In this document: one piece after another, positions 1 to 5,874 of the stretch
Numbering within the stretch: the first letter of the stretch is position 1
Layout: every line of letters begins with the position of its first letter
Source of the DNA: Ruminiclostridium sp.
GTDB lineage: Bacteria; Bacillota_A; Clostridia; Oscillospirales; Ruminococcaceae
NCBI GenBank assembly: GCA_017550775.1
Contig: JAFZOA010000754.1
Coordinates: forward strand, 1-5,874
DNA: 5,874 bases
Direction of reading: 5' to 3'
Program-made: the position numbers and the translations under genes
The notes under the pieces: model-generated
Told to the model about the DNA's origin: nothing
The model's database searches: none
The model's input: only the letters and a program-made list of their open reading frames with translations

Positions 1-1990
1 CGCAGACTATCTGCTCCGAGAACGGGTCGGCTTCCGACGCATTTTTCAGGAACATCAGCTCCCGTTCGCGGTCACCCCTCTCGCGGCACATCTCCGCCGC
101 CATGACCGAGGCGTTCACAAAGCACCGGTCGTAGTATTCCTTAAGTTCCTGTGAGCTGCGGCTGTCGGCCGCGCCGAGGTAACGTCCCCAGTAGCTCTCC
201 AGCACCGCCTCGTGCTTTGCGAGCCTGTTTCTGTCGCCGGTCTCCAGCGCCTCGCAGACTTCTATGATATCTCTGTCGTCCTCTGTTATCATCGACATAT
301 CGAGGGTGTAGCACTTGTTCTTGTAGATGATGACGTTCTCCAGCCCGTATGCCGCAAGCTCACGCCTGAGCCCGTATATGATGTTGTGCAGCATAGCTAC
401 CGCGTTGGCGGGGATATCCCCGCTCCAGAGCATATTCAGCAGCTCCTCGCGCTGAATGGGCTTCCCCGCTCTTTCCAGCATATAGGCGATAAGCTCGATG
501 CTCTTGCGGCTCTTGCACTGTATCTCGGTGCCGTCCACGGAGAGCCGCAGCGTACCGAAGCGGTAGATGTGGAGCCGCCCGCCGCTTTTCTCACCGCTGT
601 TTATCTCCGCAAGGATATCAAGCTCCTTGCGATGAAGGTACGGGAGCGGAACAGAGTTTGCGTTCAGATACTCGCACGCGCTCCTGACATTCTCCGCGTA
701 CAGCACGGGGTTCCTCTCATAGCGCAGCAGCCCGTTGTAAAGCTTTCTGGTGACGCTGTAACGGTTCTCCTTGCCGAAGCGGCTGTCCGCCATGTTGAAC
801 GCTGCCTCCATTTTCGCGTGATCTCCGGAGTAGTAATAATACTGCGCGAGGATCCCAAGCACCTCCGGGTCGGTCGTCCCGCGGTCCTTCCCGATGATAT
901 CGCCGCAGTAGCCTATGAGCTCGAACTCATAGTTTGCGAGGAACCGCTCACCGTATTCTTTGAGTATGCGCTCGGCGGCGGCGGCGTTCCCGCTCACATC
1001 GAACAGCTTTATCGCCTCTGCGAAGCGATTCTCCTTTATGTAGTACGAGGAGGCTCGTTCGGTGATGACGCTTTTCTTCTCCGAGGACAGCATACCCGAA
1101 AGTATGTCTCTCATCACCGCAGGGAAGCGTATCCCGCCGTTTTCGTCCCGGGACAGCACCCCCATGCTCACAAGCCGGTCTTCTCTCGCAGCGCCGTCGT
1201 TTATCCGGAACACCGCCTCTGAGAAGTGAGCGTCCGGCGCGTCGATAAATGCCGACATTTCAAGATACTCCGCAAGGTCGGGACCTGTCTCCGGTAGGAT
1301 ATTACATTCGATGTACCGCCGGAGAAGCGTGCGTTCCGCGCACCCGGCAATATCCTCGTCGGAGTCTGCGGCTTTAGCTGTCTCCGCGACTCCGACGCAC
1401 CAGCCGTTCGTGTAGGAATACAGCGTGTTGAGGTATTTGTCCGTGCAGGACTTCCCGAGTAGCTTTAAGAATTCCTCCGTCTCCGCACGGGTAAAGCTCA
1501 TCTCCCCGATGCCGTAAAGCGCGGCTTCCCCGTTCATAAGGAACTCCAGCGTGTACCCCGGTATCCCGCGCGACGCGAGCAGCACCCGGATCTTCCCTTC
1601 CGCCGCCGCCCGGCATAGAAGCGCAAGAAGCGCCGATGCTGCCTTGTTACTCACAGCATCGGCGTTGTCAACAAGAACAAGCCCGTTCTCACGAGCCGAA
1701 ACTTCCTCTATGAAGCGGCATACGGTCTCATACCCCGTACCGCCCGCTATGCCGGGAACGCTGTCTTCGAGCACCCTCGCTATGCGCTCCGGCGAATTAT
1801 CATACGGCGCGAGCGAGATAAGAACGCTTCCCCTTACCTCGGCAGCGAGCTGCGCAAGATACGCGGTCTTGCCGTACCCGGCGCAGCAGGCTATTATCCC
1901 GAGCCGCGCGGACATTTCCGCCCGTTCCCTGCGGACAAGGCGCTTACCCGGCACGCGGCCGGTCGTTTCCATATTACAGTCCATGATCAT
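1..1990 (-). CDS. MalT-like STAND ATPase fused to SARP/BTAD transcriptional activator (C-terminus cut by window edge)
   Basis: This is a large regulator, 663 codons visible and open at position 1. Residues 34-42 (ACCAGYGKT) form a MalT-type P-loop with K41 and T42. A Walker B-like strand follows at 103-108 (GLVLVD, D108). Residues from about 115 to 300 look like the rest of the NTPase core (including ASRG after a hydrophobic strand) and 300-470 is helical and repeat-like. Residues 473-565 form an OmpR/SARP-type winged helix (FGTLRLSVDG start; REELLNMLW; a YKNKCYTLD wing). From about 567 a BTAD helical domain begins and is truncated. Proteins of this class are NTP-dependent transcription activators. 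ATG 1990 is 10 bp after the upstream stop; ATG 1984 and 1972 are in-frame alternatives. None has a strong Shine-Dalgarno, so translational coupling is likely. Its position in the operon suggests it regulates this cluster, which is inference. The family call is firm; the target and inducer are unknown. Confidence 0.9.
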   Translation of the reverse strand, partial: MIMDCNMETTGRVPGKRLVRRERAEMSARLGIIACCAGYGKTAYLAQLAAEVRGSVLISLAPYDNSPERIARVLEDSVPGIAGGTGYETVCRFIEEVSARENGLVLVDNADAVSNKAASALLALLCRAAAEGKIRVLLASRGIPGYTLEFLMNGEAALYGIGEMSFTRAETEEFLKLLGKSCTDKYLNTLYSYTNGWCVGVAETAKAADSDEDIAGCAERTLLRRYIECNILPETGPDLAEYLEMSAFIDAPDAHFSEAVFRINDGAAREDRLVSMGVLSRDENGGIRFPAVMRDILSGMLSSEKKSVITERASSYYIKENRFAEAIKLFDVSGNAAAAERILKEYGERFLANYEFELIGYCGDIIGKDRGTTDPEVLGILAQYYYYSGDHAKMEAAFNMADSRFGKENRYSVTRKLYNGLLRYERNPVLYAENVRSACEYLNANSVPLPYLHRKELDILAEINSGEKSGGRLHIYRFGTLRLSVDGTEIQCKSRKSIELIAYMLERAGKPIQREELLNMLWSGDIPANAVAMLHNIIYGLRRELAAYGLENVIIYKNKCYTLDMSMITEDDRDIIEVCEALETGDRNRLAKHEAVLESYWGRYLGAADSRSSQELKEYYDRCFVNASVMAAEMCRERGDRERELMFLKNASEADPFSEQIVC

Positions 1991-2000
1991 ATCAATTTTA

Positions 2001-3629
2001 TTATCCGAAATACCTGAATCCGAGCACCGCGGTATCCATTGACACCGGCGTATCGTTCCTGAACTTCTCAAGCTCGGCTTCGAGCTCCGAGATCGTCTCG
2101 TCCAGCGCGTAGACGTTTCCGGATATCCTGTTCACCGAGTCACGAAGCCGCTCCATGGTGTATTTCGAGCCGGAGGGGTCGCACATTTCGGAGATGCCGA
2201 AGGACGTGAACAGGAGCGTGCTTCCCTGATACAGCGAGAGCGTACTCTGCTCAAACGAAAGTCCGCGCATCTGACCGAGGCTGAACGGAAGTTTTGCCTT
2301 GTCGAATCGGAAATCCTCACCCGGCTTCTTTATGAGTATGGGTGGCATACCCGCGTTGACGTATCTCATAACGCCGGTTTTCAGGTCGATATCCGCGATG
2401 ACGGCACCGATAGTGAGACCCCTGTCCTTCTTCTCCTTGCTGCAAAGCTGATTGTTGGTCTCGGCGGCTATCTTCCCGGGACCGAAGCCCATTTTCGCAA
2501 AGCTCTTGATGTATGAGATCGCAAGGACGGTAAAGATCATCGCCGCGAGGCCTTCGCCCAGAGACTCCCCGAGCACCACCAAGAGATGGTTGGTGTCCGT
2601 GAAGAAGTAGTTGCAGAAGCTGCACCTGTTGTAGAGCGTGTGACCGAGGCTCGCGCACAGGTCAAAATCGGTGCGTTCCGGGAATGCGGGGTAGTTGATC
2701 TCACTCGAAACAACGCTTCTTATCTGGCTCGCGACATCTAAGTCCACGCGCCGCCTCTCCGCCACGGTGGTTTGGACTTCAAGGTGATCGGTGTAGTCTA
2801 TGATGCGCTTGGCAAGGGCGTTGAAGTCATCCGCCATCTGCTCGATCTCATCGTTGGTATGTATTTCCGTGATCGGCTCATAGACCAGAACTCCCTCGTC
2901 GGACACAAACCTGTTCATGTGAACCGAAAGAGCCTTGAGCGGTCTGATGACACCTGATCTCAGATAGAGGATAAGGAAAACGGCAAAGGCAATGATACCC
3001 ATATCGGCTATGCTCGCGATATAGATCGACTCCATAATGATTCGTTCTATCACCCGCGCTATCTCTATCTCCACGCCCGCCACTGCTGCGACTCTCCCGT
3101 CGCTGTACTTGATAGGCGAGAAAACGGCAAGTATCATCTTTCCGCCGTCGTTCTCGATCTTATCGTGCGTCACGGTCTCCCGTGTCTCAAACACCTTAAG
3201 GATCGTTTCGTAAGCTTTGCTCTTGCCGAAATGATACCCGAATTCGTATTCATTGGATTGCTCGTTCGGAGTATCGACTATTATCGTCATATCGTTCAGA
3301 ATGTTGCCGTTCTTGTCACGCGTGGGATAGTAAACGTACAGATCCTCCACGCTGTCAAATATCTCGCGTGTGTGAAGACATTCTTCATGTATCGCATCAT
3401 AGTAGTCGTCCGTTCCTTCTATTATCCATTCGTCTATACGATCTCCGCTTCCCACAAGCTCGGAGACATACTCGCCGTACTGTTCCGCAAGCTTATTATA
3501 GGTATCGAAAGCGCGCGTGGCACTCGTCAGCAGCGCGGTGACCGCTACGACAAGGCTCATGACGACCATCATGATAACGAATGATATGACAAGCCTGAAA
3601 TAAAGCTTCCCGTTTTTTCTGATACTCAA
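2001..3629 (-). CDS. Membrane sensor: Cache-like outer domain, HAMP, and degenerate SpoIIE/RsbU-type phosphatase domain
   Basis: The protein is 542 residues from TTG 3629. A transmembrane helix spans about 12-34, an outer domain about 35-198 ending in a Cache-like pattern (AVFSPIKYSDGRVAAVAGVE), a second helix about 200-223, HAMP about 224-277, a short linker helix, then a PP2C/SpoIIE-type domain about 297-542. The fold is recognisable from YVNAGMPPILI (423-433), the LLFTSFGISE stretch and the final strand. The metal-site aspartates are mostly gone: the GGDFYD motif reads RCSFCN (S337, N340), GDVSGKG reads GESLGEG (E355), TDG reads SFG (F477) and the final DD reads MD (M531, D532). RsbU/SpoIIE relatives dephosphorylate anti-sigma-factor antagonists; this one is probably inactive and signals by binding. 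It follows the cyclase-like gene by 33 bp and precedes the SARP regulator by 10 bp. Architecture is well supported; inactivity rests on manual alignment. Confidence 0.9.
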   Translation of the reverse strand: MSIRKNGKLYFRLVISFVIMMVVMSLVVAVTALLTSATRAFDTYNKLAEQYGEYVSELVGSGDRIDEWIIEGTDDYYDAIHEECLHTREIFDSVEDLYVYYPTRDKNGNILNDMTIIVDTPNEQSNEYEFGYHFGKSKAYETILKVFETRETVTHDKIENDGGKMILAVFSPIKYSDGRVAAVAGVEIEIARVIERIIMESIYIASIADMGIIAFAVFLILYLRSGVIRPLKALSVHMNRFVSDEGVLVYEPITEIHTNDEIEQMADDFNALAKRIIDYTDHLEVQTTVAERRRVDLDVASQIRSVVSSEINYPAFPERTDFDLCASLGHTLYNRCSFCNYFFTDTNHLLVVLGESLGEGLAAMIFTVLAISYIKSFAKMGFGPGKIAAETNNQLCSKEKKDRGLTIGAVIADIDLKTGVMRYVNAGMPPILIKKPGEDFRFDKAKLPFSLGQMRGLSFEQSTLSLYQGSTLLFTSFGISEMCDPSGSKYTMERLRDSVNRISGNVYALDETISELEAELEKFRNDTPVSMDTAVLGFRYFG

Positions 3630-3637
3630 TAAAAACA

Positions 3638-3641
3638 CCTC
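3638..3641 (-). promoter_or_regulatory. Ribosome binding site that favours a TTG start at 3629
   Basis: On the minus strand GAGG lies 8 bases before TTG 3629, ideal spacing. The longer reading frame would start at GTG 3638, but that codon overlaps this site and has only a GGAG about 12 bases further up. The TTG start gives MSIRKNGKLYFRL, a normal short cytoplasmic lead into the first membrane helix. Confidence 0.6.
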
Positions 3642-3662
3642 ACAAGGAGACTCCGGAGTTTA

Positions 3663-4469
3663 TCAGTCGATCTCCAGATACTGTTTTTCGTTCTCGTCGG
3701 ATGCTTTCGCAATACAGCTGTCGCATCTGAACACATACTGTTTTGCGGCGGCATCGTTCCTGTCGAATTTCAGCAGCTCGATAAAGTACGAGCGCGCTTC
3801 AAGATAGCTTCCTTTAAGAAACAGATCCACACCGTTCTCAAAGAACAGCCTGCTTCTCATCTTGCTGTATTTCGTATCGGCAATATCGCCGTCGTACACG
3901 TCGTAAATATCCTCCGACCTGTCGGTTGCCGTGTGGAATATCTTCCCGAGTCTGCGGCTGTTGTACCGCTTGTAGAAGTCCGTAAGACGCGAGGTGACAT
4001 TGCTTGTTATCAGTATGCGTGAATTATACTTCGGCGCGGTAACGCTCAGGAATGTCGCGGTGTCCATTGTCTCCGACAGCACCAGCGGCATACTGAATCC
4101 GTCGAAGCCGACAACGCCTGTACAGACGGGGCCGTAGTCTATGCCGATGCTCACACCGCTGAACAAAGACTTTCTTTCCTCGCGCTCGGCTTCCTGACAA
4201 ATGGTGATCGCGCAGGTAAGAGCGTCGTCACAGTTTTTCCCGAACATTGCCGTTATACCCGACCGCGTTACCGAGATAAGCTTTCCGTTATGGTTGCCGA
4301 GCGTATTTCCGATGTCCTCCGTCTGCATATTTATCAGGGATATAAGTCCAAGATCCTTGTTTATCATGATCTTGTCTCTGAAATAAACGGTCGAGATGTT
4401 CATCACCACCGCTTCCTTTATCTCGGATATTCCCGGATCAATGGTCTTGCCGAGGCTCTTCTTATCCAT
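3663..4469 (-). CDS. Degenerate class III nucleotidyl cyclase-like protein with C-terminal TPR
   Basis: This is a soluble protein of 268 residues with no signal peptide or membrane segment. Residues about 18-195 follow the adenylate/guanylate cyclase fold: an opening strand (VVMNIS), GITAMFG (71-77), a helix with DDALTCAITIC, then SIGIDYGPVCTGVVG (107-121) matching the usual IGIhxGxvvxGxvG, and a late ILIT strand. The catalytic set is missing. By alignment the first metal Asp is N24, the second is S70, the base-specifying Lys is S66 and the base-specifying Asp is E133. The transition-state Asn and Arg are D136 and F140. Residues about 207-255 look like one TPR (FFENGVDLFLKGSYLEARSYF), an arrangement common at cyclase C-termini. 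It probably binds a partner rather than making cAMP or cGMP. ATG 4469 is preceded by AAAGGA at about 10 bases and begins 23 bp after the PAAR-like gene. Fold call good; role unknown. Confidence 0.85.
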   Translation of the reverse strand: MDKKSLGKTIDPGISEIKEAVVMNISTVYFRDKIMINKDLGLISLINMQTEDIGNTLGNHNGKLISVTRSGITAMFGKNCDDALTCAITICQEAEREERKSLFSGVSIGIDYGPVCTGVVGFDGFSMPLVLSETMDTATFLSVTAPKYNSRILITSNVTSRLTDFYKRYNSRRLGKIFHTATDRSEDIYDVYDGDIADTKYSKMRSRLFFENGVDLFLKGSYLEARSYFIELLKFDRNDAAAKQYVFRCDSCIAKASDENEKQYLEID

Positions 4470-4492: not shown

Positions 4493-4879
4493 TCACGGTA
4501 CCATGATATTGGTGGTGCCGGGATTTGTGATCTGTATTACCCCGCCCCAGTTGCACATAAGCTTGCTCGTATTGTTCAGAGCCGGCTGACCCCCGATAAG
4601 TACGGTCGGGCTGCCGGGAGCCCACGGTGCGGTCGTCACCGGTATGCACGGCATCGGTGTGAGCACCCCGAGCGCCGCCGCGGTAGCCGATGCCACCGTC
4701 GGATTTGCGGGACACGAGCACATACCGAACGGCATAATGTTCGCAAGCGGCTTGTTGTCCATTATATTCGCAAGCGGCATCGTCGTCACCGTCTTGTTCT
4801 GCGGAAGAACGTTAAGCGCCGACGGTGCCATTCCGAACGAGCAGAAAAGCATCGCACCTCCGCATACCGCCATTCCCAT
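4493..4879 (-). CDS. PAAR-like spike-tip protein (DUF4280 family)
   Basis: The product is 128 residues, a normal length for this family. Hallmarks are PFGMCSCPANP (50-60), an Ala/Thr-rich helix (ATAAALGVLTPMPCIP), then the W-PGSPTVLIGGQPAL core (86-101) and SKLMCNWGGVIQI (105-117). DUF4280 proteins are PAAR-like and are expected to cap the VgrG-type spike of contractile injection systems, sometimes carrying effectors. Six cysteines (6, 13, 54, 56, 78, 109) could bind a metal or form bonds at the tip, which is inference. The motif PLANIM occurs twice, at 35-40 and 44-49. ATG 4879 is favoured over the in-frame ATG 4873 because AAAGGGG (4888-4894) sits 8 bases before it. It lies 38 bp after the all-beta gene and 23 bp before the cyclase-like gene. 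I am confident in the family and less so in the exact attachment partner. Confidence 0.92.
   Translation of the reverse strand: MGMAVCGGAMLFCSFGMAPSALNVLPQNKTVTTMPLANIMDNKPLANIMPFGMCSCPANPTVASATAAALGVLTPMPCIPVTTAPWAPGSPTVLIGGQPALNNTSKLMCNWGGVIQITNPGTTNIMVP
4740..4778 (-). repeat. Two direct copies of a 12-base repeat inside the PAAR-like gene
   Basis: On the plus strand TTCGCAAGCGGC occurs at 4740-4751 and again at 4767-4778. The 27-base period is exactly nine codons, so it encodes the duplicated PLANIM of the protein. It probably reflects the repeating strand-turn of a PAAR-like fold or a small internal duplication, not a mobile or regulatory repeat. Confidence 0.7.
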
Positions 4880-4917: not shown

Positions 4918-5679
4918 TCATGTAAGATCCGCCTTCACGCAGCCCGTCCCGGATATGTCTATCGTCCTGCGCAAAGGCTTTCCCGACCCCTGCGCCTCGC
5001 ATACGAGCTCCCTGCCGGCACCGCTTCTGAGCAGTATCATGAACCTGCCGCCCGCGTCCGCCGTGCATTCCGATACCGGAGCGACCACCGTTCCGATCTT
5101 CGGATAGCTCCCGCGGAGCTTCTCCGTGAGCCGGTATTCCGAGCGCTCACTGTTCTCGCCGGACTTTATCCGTATGTATTCTCCCTTGTCGTCCGGCGAT
5201 ATTATCTTAAGGAGCTTGCCCTCGATGTTCGCGTTATCCCCGTGGTATATCCCCACAATGTCGCTTCCTTTTTTCACATCGTAAAGCAGCTTGTACGCCG
5301 AAGTTTTATCCGCCGGGTATGTCCGTATCACCGCGCCGGGCTCCGCATTCCCCTCGATGCACAGGGTGTCGGAGGACACGGGGTACTGTCTGTTCGGAAC
5401 GAGCCGGACGGTAAGGCTTTCGGTCCTGCCGTCACTCACCGTGCATTTCACCTCGGTGCGCGAATAGATGCCGCCCTCGGCGATAAGGACATATTCGCCC
5501 TCCGGAAGATCCACGAAGATGTGTCTTCCGTCCGGCTTTCTGACCGGAGGCTTCTGTCCCTCTATCCATACTCTCGCGTTGCTTCCCGTCACCGGCGCTC
5601 CCGTAAGGTCGTCCGTGAGCAGGACGGCTATGGAAAAGCGCGTCACCATACGGCGGGACGGAGAACCGAACCACTCCAT
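4918..5679 (-). CDS. Unrecognised all-beta protein with N-terminal carboxypeptidase-regulatory-like/Ig-like domain
   Basis: I do not recognise a named family for the 253-residue product. Residues about 11-95 resemble a carboxypeptidase-regulatory-like beta sandwich: LTDDLTGAPV, then VRKPDGRHIFVDLPEGEYVL and SRTEVKCTVSDG, the usual order of turn, DG, F-x-D-L-P-x-G-x-Y. Residues about 104-253 are also strand-rich, with an Ig-like IEGNAEPGAVI and KIGTVVAPVSECTADAGGRF pattern, and no catalytic motif stands out. There is no signal peptide or membrane helix, consistent with a cytoplasmically assembled particle part. It sits between the DUF4255-like and PAAR-like genes, so a structural, baseplate-associated or cargo-binding role is plausible; that is inference from position. 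ATG 5679 is chosen over the longer GTG 5688 because AGGAAG (5688-5693) lies 8 bases before the ATG and directly abuts the GTG. Confidence 0.8.
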   Translation of the reverse strand: MEWFGSPSRRMVTRFSIAVLLTDDLTGAPVTGSNARVWIEGQKPPVRKPDGRHIFVDLPEGEYVLIAEGGIYSRTEVKCTVSDGRTESLTVRLVPNRQYPVSSDTLCIEGNAEPGAVIRTYPADKTSAYKLLYDVKKGSDIVGIYHGDNANIEGKLLKIISPDDKGEYIRIKSGENSERSEYRLTEKLRGSYPKIGTVVAPVSECTADAGGRFMILLRSGAGRELVCEAQGSGKPLRRTIDISGTGCVKADLT

Positions 5680-5684
5680 AGCGC

Positions 5685-5874
5685 TCACTTCCTTTCGCCG
5701 CTGTTAAGGTCGCTCATCTGACCGAATGTGAACTCGGTCTCGGTCACTCTCGTTATCTTCTTTATGCGCTCGGACTCGATCTCGGCGGGGTAGACCTTGT
5801 AGAATACCGACAGCTTATACGGCTGGTCGGAGGCGTTCCATATCCGGTGCTTATCCTCAATGTCGAGGTCGAGC
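5685..5874 (-). CDS. DUF4255/Pvc16-like contractile injection system terminator protein (C-terminal fragment)
   Basis: Only the last 62 codons are inside the window; the gene enters from beyond position 5874. The visible part reads LDLDIEDKHRIWN, then QPYKLSVFYKVYPAEIES, then KKITRVTETEF, and ends with a short polar tail. The pattern of an IWN turn, PYKLS-FYKV-P-EIES strand and TRVT strand matches my knowledge of DUF4255 (Pvc16/Afp16-like) C-termini. Members are described as cap or tail-terminator proteins that stop tube and sheath growth in extracellular contractile injection systems. Its stop codon is only 5 bp before the next gene's start, so the two are probably translationally coupled. 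This is the main anchor, with the PAAR-like gene, for calling the locus an injection system. The call rests on a short fragment from memory, without a profile search. Confidence 0.75.
   Translation of the reverse strand, partial: LDLDIEDKHRIWNASDQPYKLSVFYKVYPAEIESERIKKITRVTETEFTFGQMSDLNSGERK

Follow-up and report, generated by a model that had tools for sequence, protein, structure and literature searches.

Two degenerate signalling enzymes in an injection-system operon

The window analyzed here (the whole stretch, 5,874 nt of a Ruminiclostridium sp. contig, JAFZOA010000754.1) carries two adjacent minus-strand genes whose products resemble a class III cyclase and a PP2C phosphatase and lack catalytic residues of both enzymes; we refer to them as the pseudo-cyclase and the pseudo-PP2C. 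Both frames are intact (268 aa and 545 aa) and are separated by 24 nt. They lie in a minus-strand operon that runs from the end of a DUF4255 gene through a carboxypeptidase-regulatory-like gene, DUF4280, the pseudo-cyclase and the pseudo-PP2C to a SARP/STAND gene, with 38, 23, 24 and 10 nt in the last four intergenic gaps. Loci are denoted below by L, protein rows by P and genomes by G.

The pair
3663..4469, minus strand: pseudo-cyclase, class III cyclase fold with a C-terminal helical (TPR-like) tail, predicted to be soluble (profile, model, hydropathy scan)
4392..4394, minus strand: codon of S26, the first metal aspartate (Asp) position (Me1), from alignment with the intact cyclases L017-L020
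4260..4262, minus strand: codon of S70, the second metal Asp position (Me2), from the alignment
2001..3638, minus strand: pseudo-PP2C, with the order transmembrane span (TM), sensor, TM, HAMP, long helix, SpoIIE domain (Pfam, alignment, model, hydropathy scan)
3537..3593, minus strand: TM1 of the pseudo-PP2C, residues 16-34 (hydropathy scan)
2985..3041, minus strand: TM2 of the pseudo-PP2C, residues 200-218 (hydropathy scan)
2802..2954, minus strand: HAMP domain, residues 229-279 (PF00672, 25.3 bits, cut-off 25)
2013..2591, minus strand: degenerate SpoIIE/PP2C domain, residues 350-542 by Pfam (PF07228, 81.9 bits, cut-off 25; also seen in the model)
2619..2621, minus strand: codon of S340, position of the GGD Asp (family alignment)
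2565..2567, minus strand: codon of E358, position of the GDVSGKG Asp (family alignment)
2199..2201, minus strand: codon of F480, position of the TDG Asp (family alignment)

Neighboring genes
5685..5873, minus strand: C-terminal end of a DUF4255/Pvc16_N gene, cut at the window edge; by eye its translation resembles the DUF4255 C-termini of L003 and L001 (the L003 protein matches Pvc16_N with 83 bits)
4918..5688, minus strand: carboxypeptidase-regulatory-like domain protein of the operon (PF13620, E 9e-5, under the cut-off), a gene also present in other split loci (see below)
4493..4879, minus strand: DUF4280 PAAR-like spike-tip protein (PF14107, 125.8 bits), 23 nt upstream of the pseudo-cyclase gene
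2..1990, minus strand: SARP/STAND transcription activator, MalT-like, frame open, cut at the window edge (Trans_reg_C 28.0 bits, AAA_22 28.9 bits); its likely start is the ATG at 1990, 10 nt past the pseudo-PP2C stop

The pair sits in an extracellular contractile injection system (eCIS) operon. The window itself contains DUF4280 and the end of DUF4255, and its relatives L001-L003 have a fuller set, with Tail_P2_I, Pvc16_N, DUF4280, two AAA genes and a sheath in the relatives' operons. This confirms the link to an injection system drawn in an earlier note on this DNA. In the SARP/STAND gene Trans_reg_C exceeds its cut-off; BTAD was found in the relative L003 but not in the window gene, which is partial. 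A MORN-repeat protein occurs near DUF4255 in most eCIS loci examined (in L003, at 4248-7106).

The pseudo-cyclase keeps its fold without its metal site

The window cyclase scores below the Pfam cut-off for Guanylate_cyc (17.3 vs 21.9 bits). A profile of its family nonetheless matches solved class III cyclases (best E 2e-10), and its AlphaFold2 model (pLDDT 89.8) has Foldseek matches to adenylyl cyclases (E 2e-11) and to class III cyclases that include photoactivated ones. The metal aspartates by which an active class III cyclase is recognized are replaced by S26 and S70, and in the alignment with intact cyclases the transition-state Asn and Arg columns hold D and F. We found 59 relatives and aligned 30 of them with the window (31 rows). 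Asp is absent from both metal positions in every row: Me1 is S, N, H, T, Y, A, G, F or Q, and Me2 is A, T, S, K, R, N or Q. As judged from alignment and predicted structure, the window cyclase keeps the class III fold and has lost its metal aspartates.

Routine annotation gives little away: the four short-type relatives that bear a source name are all labeled 'hypothetical protein'. PADLOC, run on five proteins, returned two marginal matches (PycC for the window cyclase, E 0.0086; GajA for an open reading frame (ORF) of L118, E 0.005). A tblastn search of viral contigs found no relatives.

The pseudo-PP2C has lost three of four metal aspartates

Pfam detects SpoIIE and HAMP in the second protein, in which two membrane spans enclose a region of ~165 residues and are followed by HAMP, a long helix and the PP2C domain. 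The model (pLDDT 85.8, pTM 0.50) resembles the PP2C domains of RssB, RsbU and SpoIIE, and the best Foldseek matches in the PDB are to Pseudomonas aeruginosa RssB; a sequence profile of the whole protein matched none of the solved structures at E 0.01. We aligned the best 120 of 128 phosphatase relatives with the window and defined the pseudo-PP2C family as rows P0060-P0135 plus the window (77) and a canonical SpoIIE set as P0139-P0179 (41). Rows P0136-P0138, partly degenerate SpoIIE proteins with I or T at the first Asp position and N at the third, were excluded from both counts.

The window protein has S340, E358 and F480 in place of three of the four metal aspartates and retains the fourth, D535. 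These replacements characterize the family: the GGD position is S in 77/77 rows, the GDVSGKG position is E in 76/77 (D in one), and the TDG position is mostly F or Y, with N, H and others, and is D in 0/76 rows that have a residue there. The C-terminal Asp is retained in 75/75 rows that have the residue. In the canonical set, Asp occupies the four positions in 41, 41, 40 and 40 of 41 rows, the rest being gaps. Conservation within the family is 0.63-0.69 for HAMP, the long helix and the PP2C domain vs 0.42 for the sensor, and the switch helices a2 and a1 reach 0.80 and 0.64. Frames, Pfam, profiles, models and alignments agree with the earlier note that two neighboring genes keep the folds of different signalling enzymes without their catalytic residues.

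Both genes are under purifying selection

The ratio of nonsynonymous to synonymous substitution rates (dN/dS) was calculated by the Nei-Gojobori method (NG86) for non-identical pairs with unsaturated dS. It was 0.07-0.17 for the pseudo-cyclase and 0.12-0.21 for the pseudo-PP2C, with uniformly high dS (1.1-3.1). For L058-L059, which are nearly identical, the ratios were 0.53 and 0.83 and came from very few changes. The same script returned 0.03-0.13 for DUF4280, 0.10-0.23 for the carboxypeptidase-regulatory-like gene, 0.12-0.14 for SARP and 0.07-0.09 for DUF4255, and both pseudoenzyme genes fall within the range of these other operon genes. Both are under purifying selection. Independent decay, which the earlier note had considered unlikely, indeed is, given dN/dS of about 0.1-0.2 and losses shared across the families; on the same grounds we rejected recent decay of the pair. 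Proteins so well preserved without catalytic residues suggest binding rather than chemistry.

No eCIS locus surveyed carries an intact cyclase

Eight loci came from named genome records (Ruminiclostridium sp., uncultured Clostridia, uncultured Clostridiales and Oscillospiraceae), all metagenome-assembled or uncultured, and 8/8 carry eCIS genes. The set comprises 40 eCIS loci that carry a cyclase-like gene: the window, L001-L008 (found via the phosphatase), 28 found via a cyclase profile (L058-L073, L118-L120, L122 and L130-L137) and L209-L211 (found via DUF4280). Both metal aspartates are retained in 0/40 of these genes and one is retained in 7/40 (the first in L132; the second in L065, L068, L069, L071, L119 and L131). 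Among cyclase genes in stretches without eCIS markers, 11/14 retain both. The exceptions, L124, L126 and L128, come from genomes of ~0.9-1.2 Mb and encode cyclase-like proteins of ~470-510 aa with partly degenerate metal sites.

Because the cyclase profile was built on degenerate members, we used a sample drawn by DUF4280 as a control for this bias. DUF4280 is present in 17/391 genomes of the class sample, and nine of the 17 have further eCIS genes (G001, G980, G869, G698, G996, G075, G889, G759 and G829). A cyclase-like gene lies in the locus in 9/9 of these and is intact in 0/9; the locus set already included six of the nine. In the remaining eight genomes, no additional eCIS marker was detected in the stretches fetched, which include short contigs, and single-sequence markers may miss divergent eCIS; G869 has two more DUF4280 places outside the fetched stretches. 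DUF4280 by itself is no eCIS marker. DUF4280 genes without another eCIS marker in the fetched stretch make up L189-L201 and L205-L208, with up to five per genome (G836).

In a tree that took 38 eCIS cyclase domains (L007 and L059 were left out), these domains and four taken without genomic context (P0053, P0055, P0057 and P0059) form one clade (support 0.945), within which the 12 split-type domains form a clade of their own (0.996). Seven intact HAMP-type cyclases form the sister group of the eCIS clade (joint node 0.946). Loss of the aspartates is therefore a matter of one or few events, not 40. Rows P0053-P0059 are pseudo-cyclases of ~325 aa, two of them assigned to Lachnospiraceae, and an N-terminal membrane span was detected in 4/4 scanned (P0053, P0055, P0057 and P0059).

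The pseudo-cyclase occurs in two layouts

In 14/14 split loci (the window, L001-L008, L058-L061 and L118), a soluble pseudo-cyclase is accompanied downstream, in the same orientation, by a two-TM pseudo-PP2C. This holds for loci discovered from the phosphatase side (L001-L008, 8/8), from the cyclase side (L058-L061, 4/4) and from both (L118), as well as for the window. The two genes directly adjoin in 12/14, and the pseudo-PP2C is cut by a contig end in L007, L008 and L118. The earlier note had asked for a test of whether the two genes co-occur next to DUF4280/DUF4255 genes with shared residue losses; in these loci they do occur together, and its refuting case of an intact homologue was not seen in any of the 14. 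Its suggestion that the pair forms a unit with the transcription activator behind it fared worse: of the 11 loci whose downstream sequence is visible, just two (the window and L001) have SARP directly after the pair and the other nine have an AAA gene there, and we rejected pair-plus-SARP as a general unit.

In 26 further eCIS loci, a hydropathy scan places membrane spans within the pseudo-cyclase itself: 25 of these proteins (795-1041 aa) have four or five, and that of L119 (564 aa) has two. HAMP was above the cut-off in two of three such proteins tested (L119 and L064) and below it in L067. A profile search from 12 membrane-type sequences gave 8 matches among the 7992 candidates sharing most words. 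Some loci were not covered end to end, which makes the absence of PP2C from membrane-type loci provisional. Because these 26 loci mostly have no detected pseudo-PP2C, the pseudo-cyclase looks like the core part and the pair like one form of something wider. The earlier note is thus supported in part: the two proteins are conserved pseudoenzymes in one eCIS operon, but they belong to a wider pattern that includes the membrane-type loci. The main evidence that the two proteins work together is this complementary layout (14 soluble pseudo-cyclases with a TM-bearing pseudo-PP2C, 26 pseudo-cyclases with their own spans).

A non-catalytic membrane checkpoint is the favored reading

By analogy with known systems, we hypothesize that the pair serves as a non-catalytic, membrane-linked sensor, checkpoint or adaptor of the eCIS, a reading we hold at a little short of an even chance. 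A signal from the envelope would travel by way of HAMP and the long helix and act on the 'switch' helices of the PP2C domain, as in SpoIIE, and the output of the pseudo-PP2C would be binding, as in RssB, instead of dephosphorylation. The partner bound may be the soluble pseudo-cyclase. Since the pseudo-cyclase has its own membrane spans in other eCIS lineages, the pseudo-PP2C would restore the membrane link that the split cyclase is missing. On this view the assembled module may be a checkpoint: as has been proposed for CisA, it would bring the particle to the membrane or give the go-ahead for its assembly, release or firing. A broader version, which we put forward more tentatively, is that the eCIS of clostridia have in common, as a core part, a dead receptor of cyclase origin that ties the machine to the membrane, mostly as a single multi-span protein and, in the window lineage, split into a two-pseudoenzyme checkpoint. 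If so, a conserved dead-enzyme component missed by routine annotation would offer a handle on how the eCIS of Gram-positive gut bacteria are held, sensed and triggered, and the pair would show plainly that two signalling enzymes of one operon can be turned to binding.

Several observations weigh against this reading. One family member, P0082, retains D at the second PP2C position, and the sensor half is common to many ordinary PP2Cs, hence non-specific to eCIS. Genes are inserted between the pair in 2/14 split loci (an MFS-type ORF in L005, two ORFs in L118). The TM split comes from a simple hydropathy scan, whose matches include isolated ones in the soluble cyclases L003, L060 and L118 that are probably spurious. 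Only 2/9 DUF4280-drawn eCIS genomes (G001 and G980) have a PP2C-like gene, degenerate in both, and the phosphatase half is therefore lineage-specific. A pseudo-PP2C stands alongside a TM-bearing pseudo-cyclase in five loci, which blurs the complementary pattern. Finally, intact SpoIIE phosphatase genes lie downstream in L158 (= L064), L159 (= L063) and L160 (= L071), each adjoining HATPase_c_2, and in the tree they fall among ordinary intact phosphatases; some eCIS may therefore use real dephosphorylation.

A second pseudo-PP2C clade, with other residue losses, is found in membrane-type loci L069 (17863-19383), L072 (17195-18685), L131 (17408-19513), L133 (16775-18283) and L160. The L072 protein has a weak HATPase-like tail. 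In L160, a degenerate and an intact SpoIIE gene lie side by side in the eCIS locus (6916-8961 and 5282-6919, minus strand), with a HATPase_c_2 gene after them and a gene for a MatE protein with a weak HATPase-like tail before them; from its gene content, this arrangement looks like a partner-switching module.

The main rival to the checkpoint is control of transcription, unlikely in our estimate though ahead of the other alternatives. The pair would sequester and then free the SARP/STAND activator, or some other regulator, in the manner of RssB, and so act on eCIS expression instead of on the particle. An RssB-type pseudo-PP2C is described as binding a transcription factor (PMC5468089, PMC7226468), and BTAD is given as an eCIS shell domain (PMC8213781). 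The SARP gene that directly follows the pair in the window and L001 also appears further down the locus in L002, L003, L006, L058 and L059. However, the gene behind the pair in the nine other loci is an AAA gene, not SARP, and in annotated loci the pseudo-cyclase lies beside or near MORN, DUF4280 or baseplate genes, not regulators. Moreover, L062-L073 and L118-L137 gave no SARP match with single-sequence markers, which may miss divergent genes; L209 has one.

We consider it improbable that the two proteins are regulatory subunits of enzymes encoded elsewhere, the pseudo-cyclase pairing with an intact cyclase or the pseudo-PP2C with an intact PP2C. Class III cyclase sites form at the dimer interface, and in soluble guanylate cyclase a dead half occurs in heterodimers. 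The sister lineage consists of intact HAMP cyclases, which are also found in the same genomes (L017-L019), and L160 has adjacent pseudo- and intact PP2C genes. The window cyclase, however, lacks both halves of the site (S and S; D and F) and should supply neither, and the fetched split loci, which are stretches rather than whole genomes, showed no intact PP2C.

Less credible again is changed chemistry, with a different ligand bound or turned over by domains that do without the canonical metals. Near-fixation of two PP2C replacements (S 77/77, E 76/77) is what a pocket in use would show, but residues at the third position differ (F, Y, N, H and others), and neither cyclase position is fixed (A, T, S, K, R, N or Q at Me2), with eCIS lineages differing widely. 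That both genes are decaying relics is hardly believable: the catalytic residues are gone, but the frames are open in the loci used, dN/dS is about 0.1-0.2 and the losses are common to deep lineages.

Comparison with known systems

The earlier note knew of no described system of this form. Our search of titles and abstract openings of open-licence papers, without supplements, found no paper on eCIS pseudo-cyclases or pseudo-phosphatases. Degenerate cyclase domains are a known kind. So are pseudo-PP2C adaptors and CIS membrane adaptors; it is the combination, or a cyclase-derived eCIS component, that was not found reported in that literature. Geller et al. (2021) place BTAD and GerE regulators near eCIS loci, as seen here for SARP, whereas the words 'cyclase', 'phosphatase' and 'HAMP' are absent from its main text (PMC8213781).

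The closest enzymes share much with the pair. Membrane HAMP class III cyclases (L017-L019, L074, L075, L127 and L129) are the sister lineage of the eCIS pseudo-cyclases and similar in length (929-981 aa), and the three tested (L017, L018 and L075) contain HAMP. They differ in having intact active sites, with no eCIS marker found in the fetched surrounding stretches; the same was true around L020. HAMP phosphatases of the SpoIIE/RsbU type have the domain order and the sensor half of the pseudo-PP2C (TM-sensor-TM-HAMP-SpoIIE), but the 41 canonical relatives compared keep their aspartates and the window family keeps one. A sensor-HAMP fusion in L119 was considered as fusion evidence and set aside as weak, since many ordinary PP2Cs share that half.

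In SpoIIE-type phosphatases, helices coupling regulatory domains to the active site act as a switch, and RssB is proposed to control binding with the same switch (PMC5468089). The window pseudo-PP2C shares the PP2C fold and the lost site with RssB and, by analogy, may share its binding role. RssB, however, is soluble, is fused to a response regulator and acts on sigma S, and the window protein is a membrane HAMP protein in an eCIS operon.

CisA of Streptomyces coelicolor, a membrane protein encoded in a CIS cluster, is a proposed checkpoint for membrane recruitment and firing (PMC12237407). Like the pair, it combines an extracytoplasmic, possibly sensing part with a cytoplasmic part. It differs in being bitopic with a cytosolic part described as largely unstructured (PMC12237407), whereas the pair consists of folded pseudoenzyme domains and HAMP. 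The comparison with CisA is one of analogous role, in which folded dead enzymes may do for a clostridial eCIS what CisA is proposed to do in Streptomyces.

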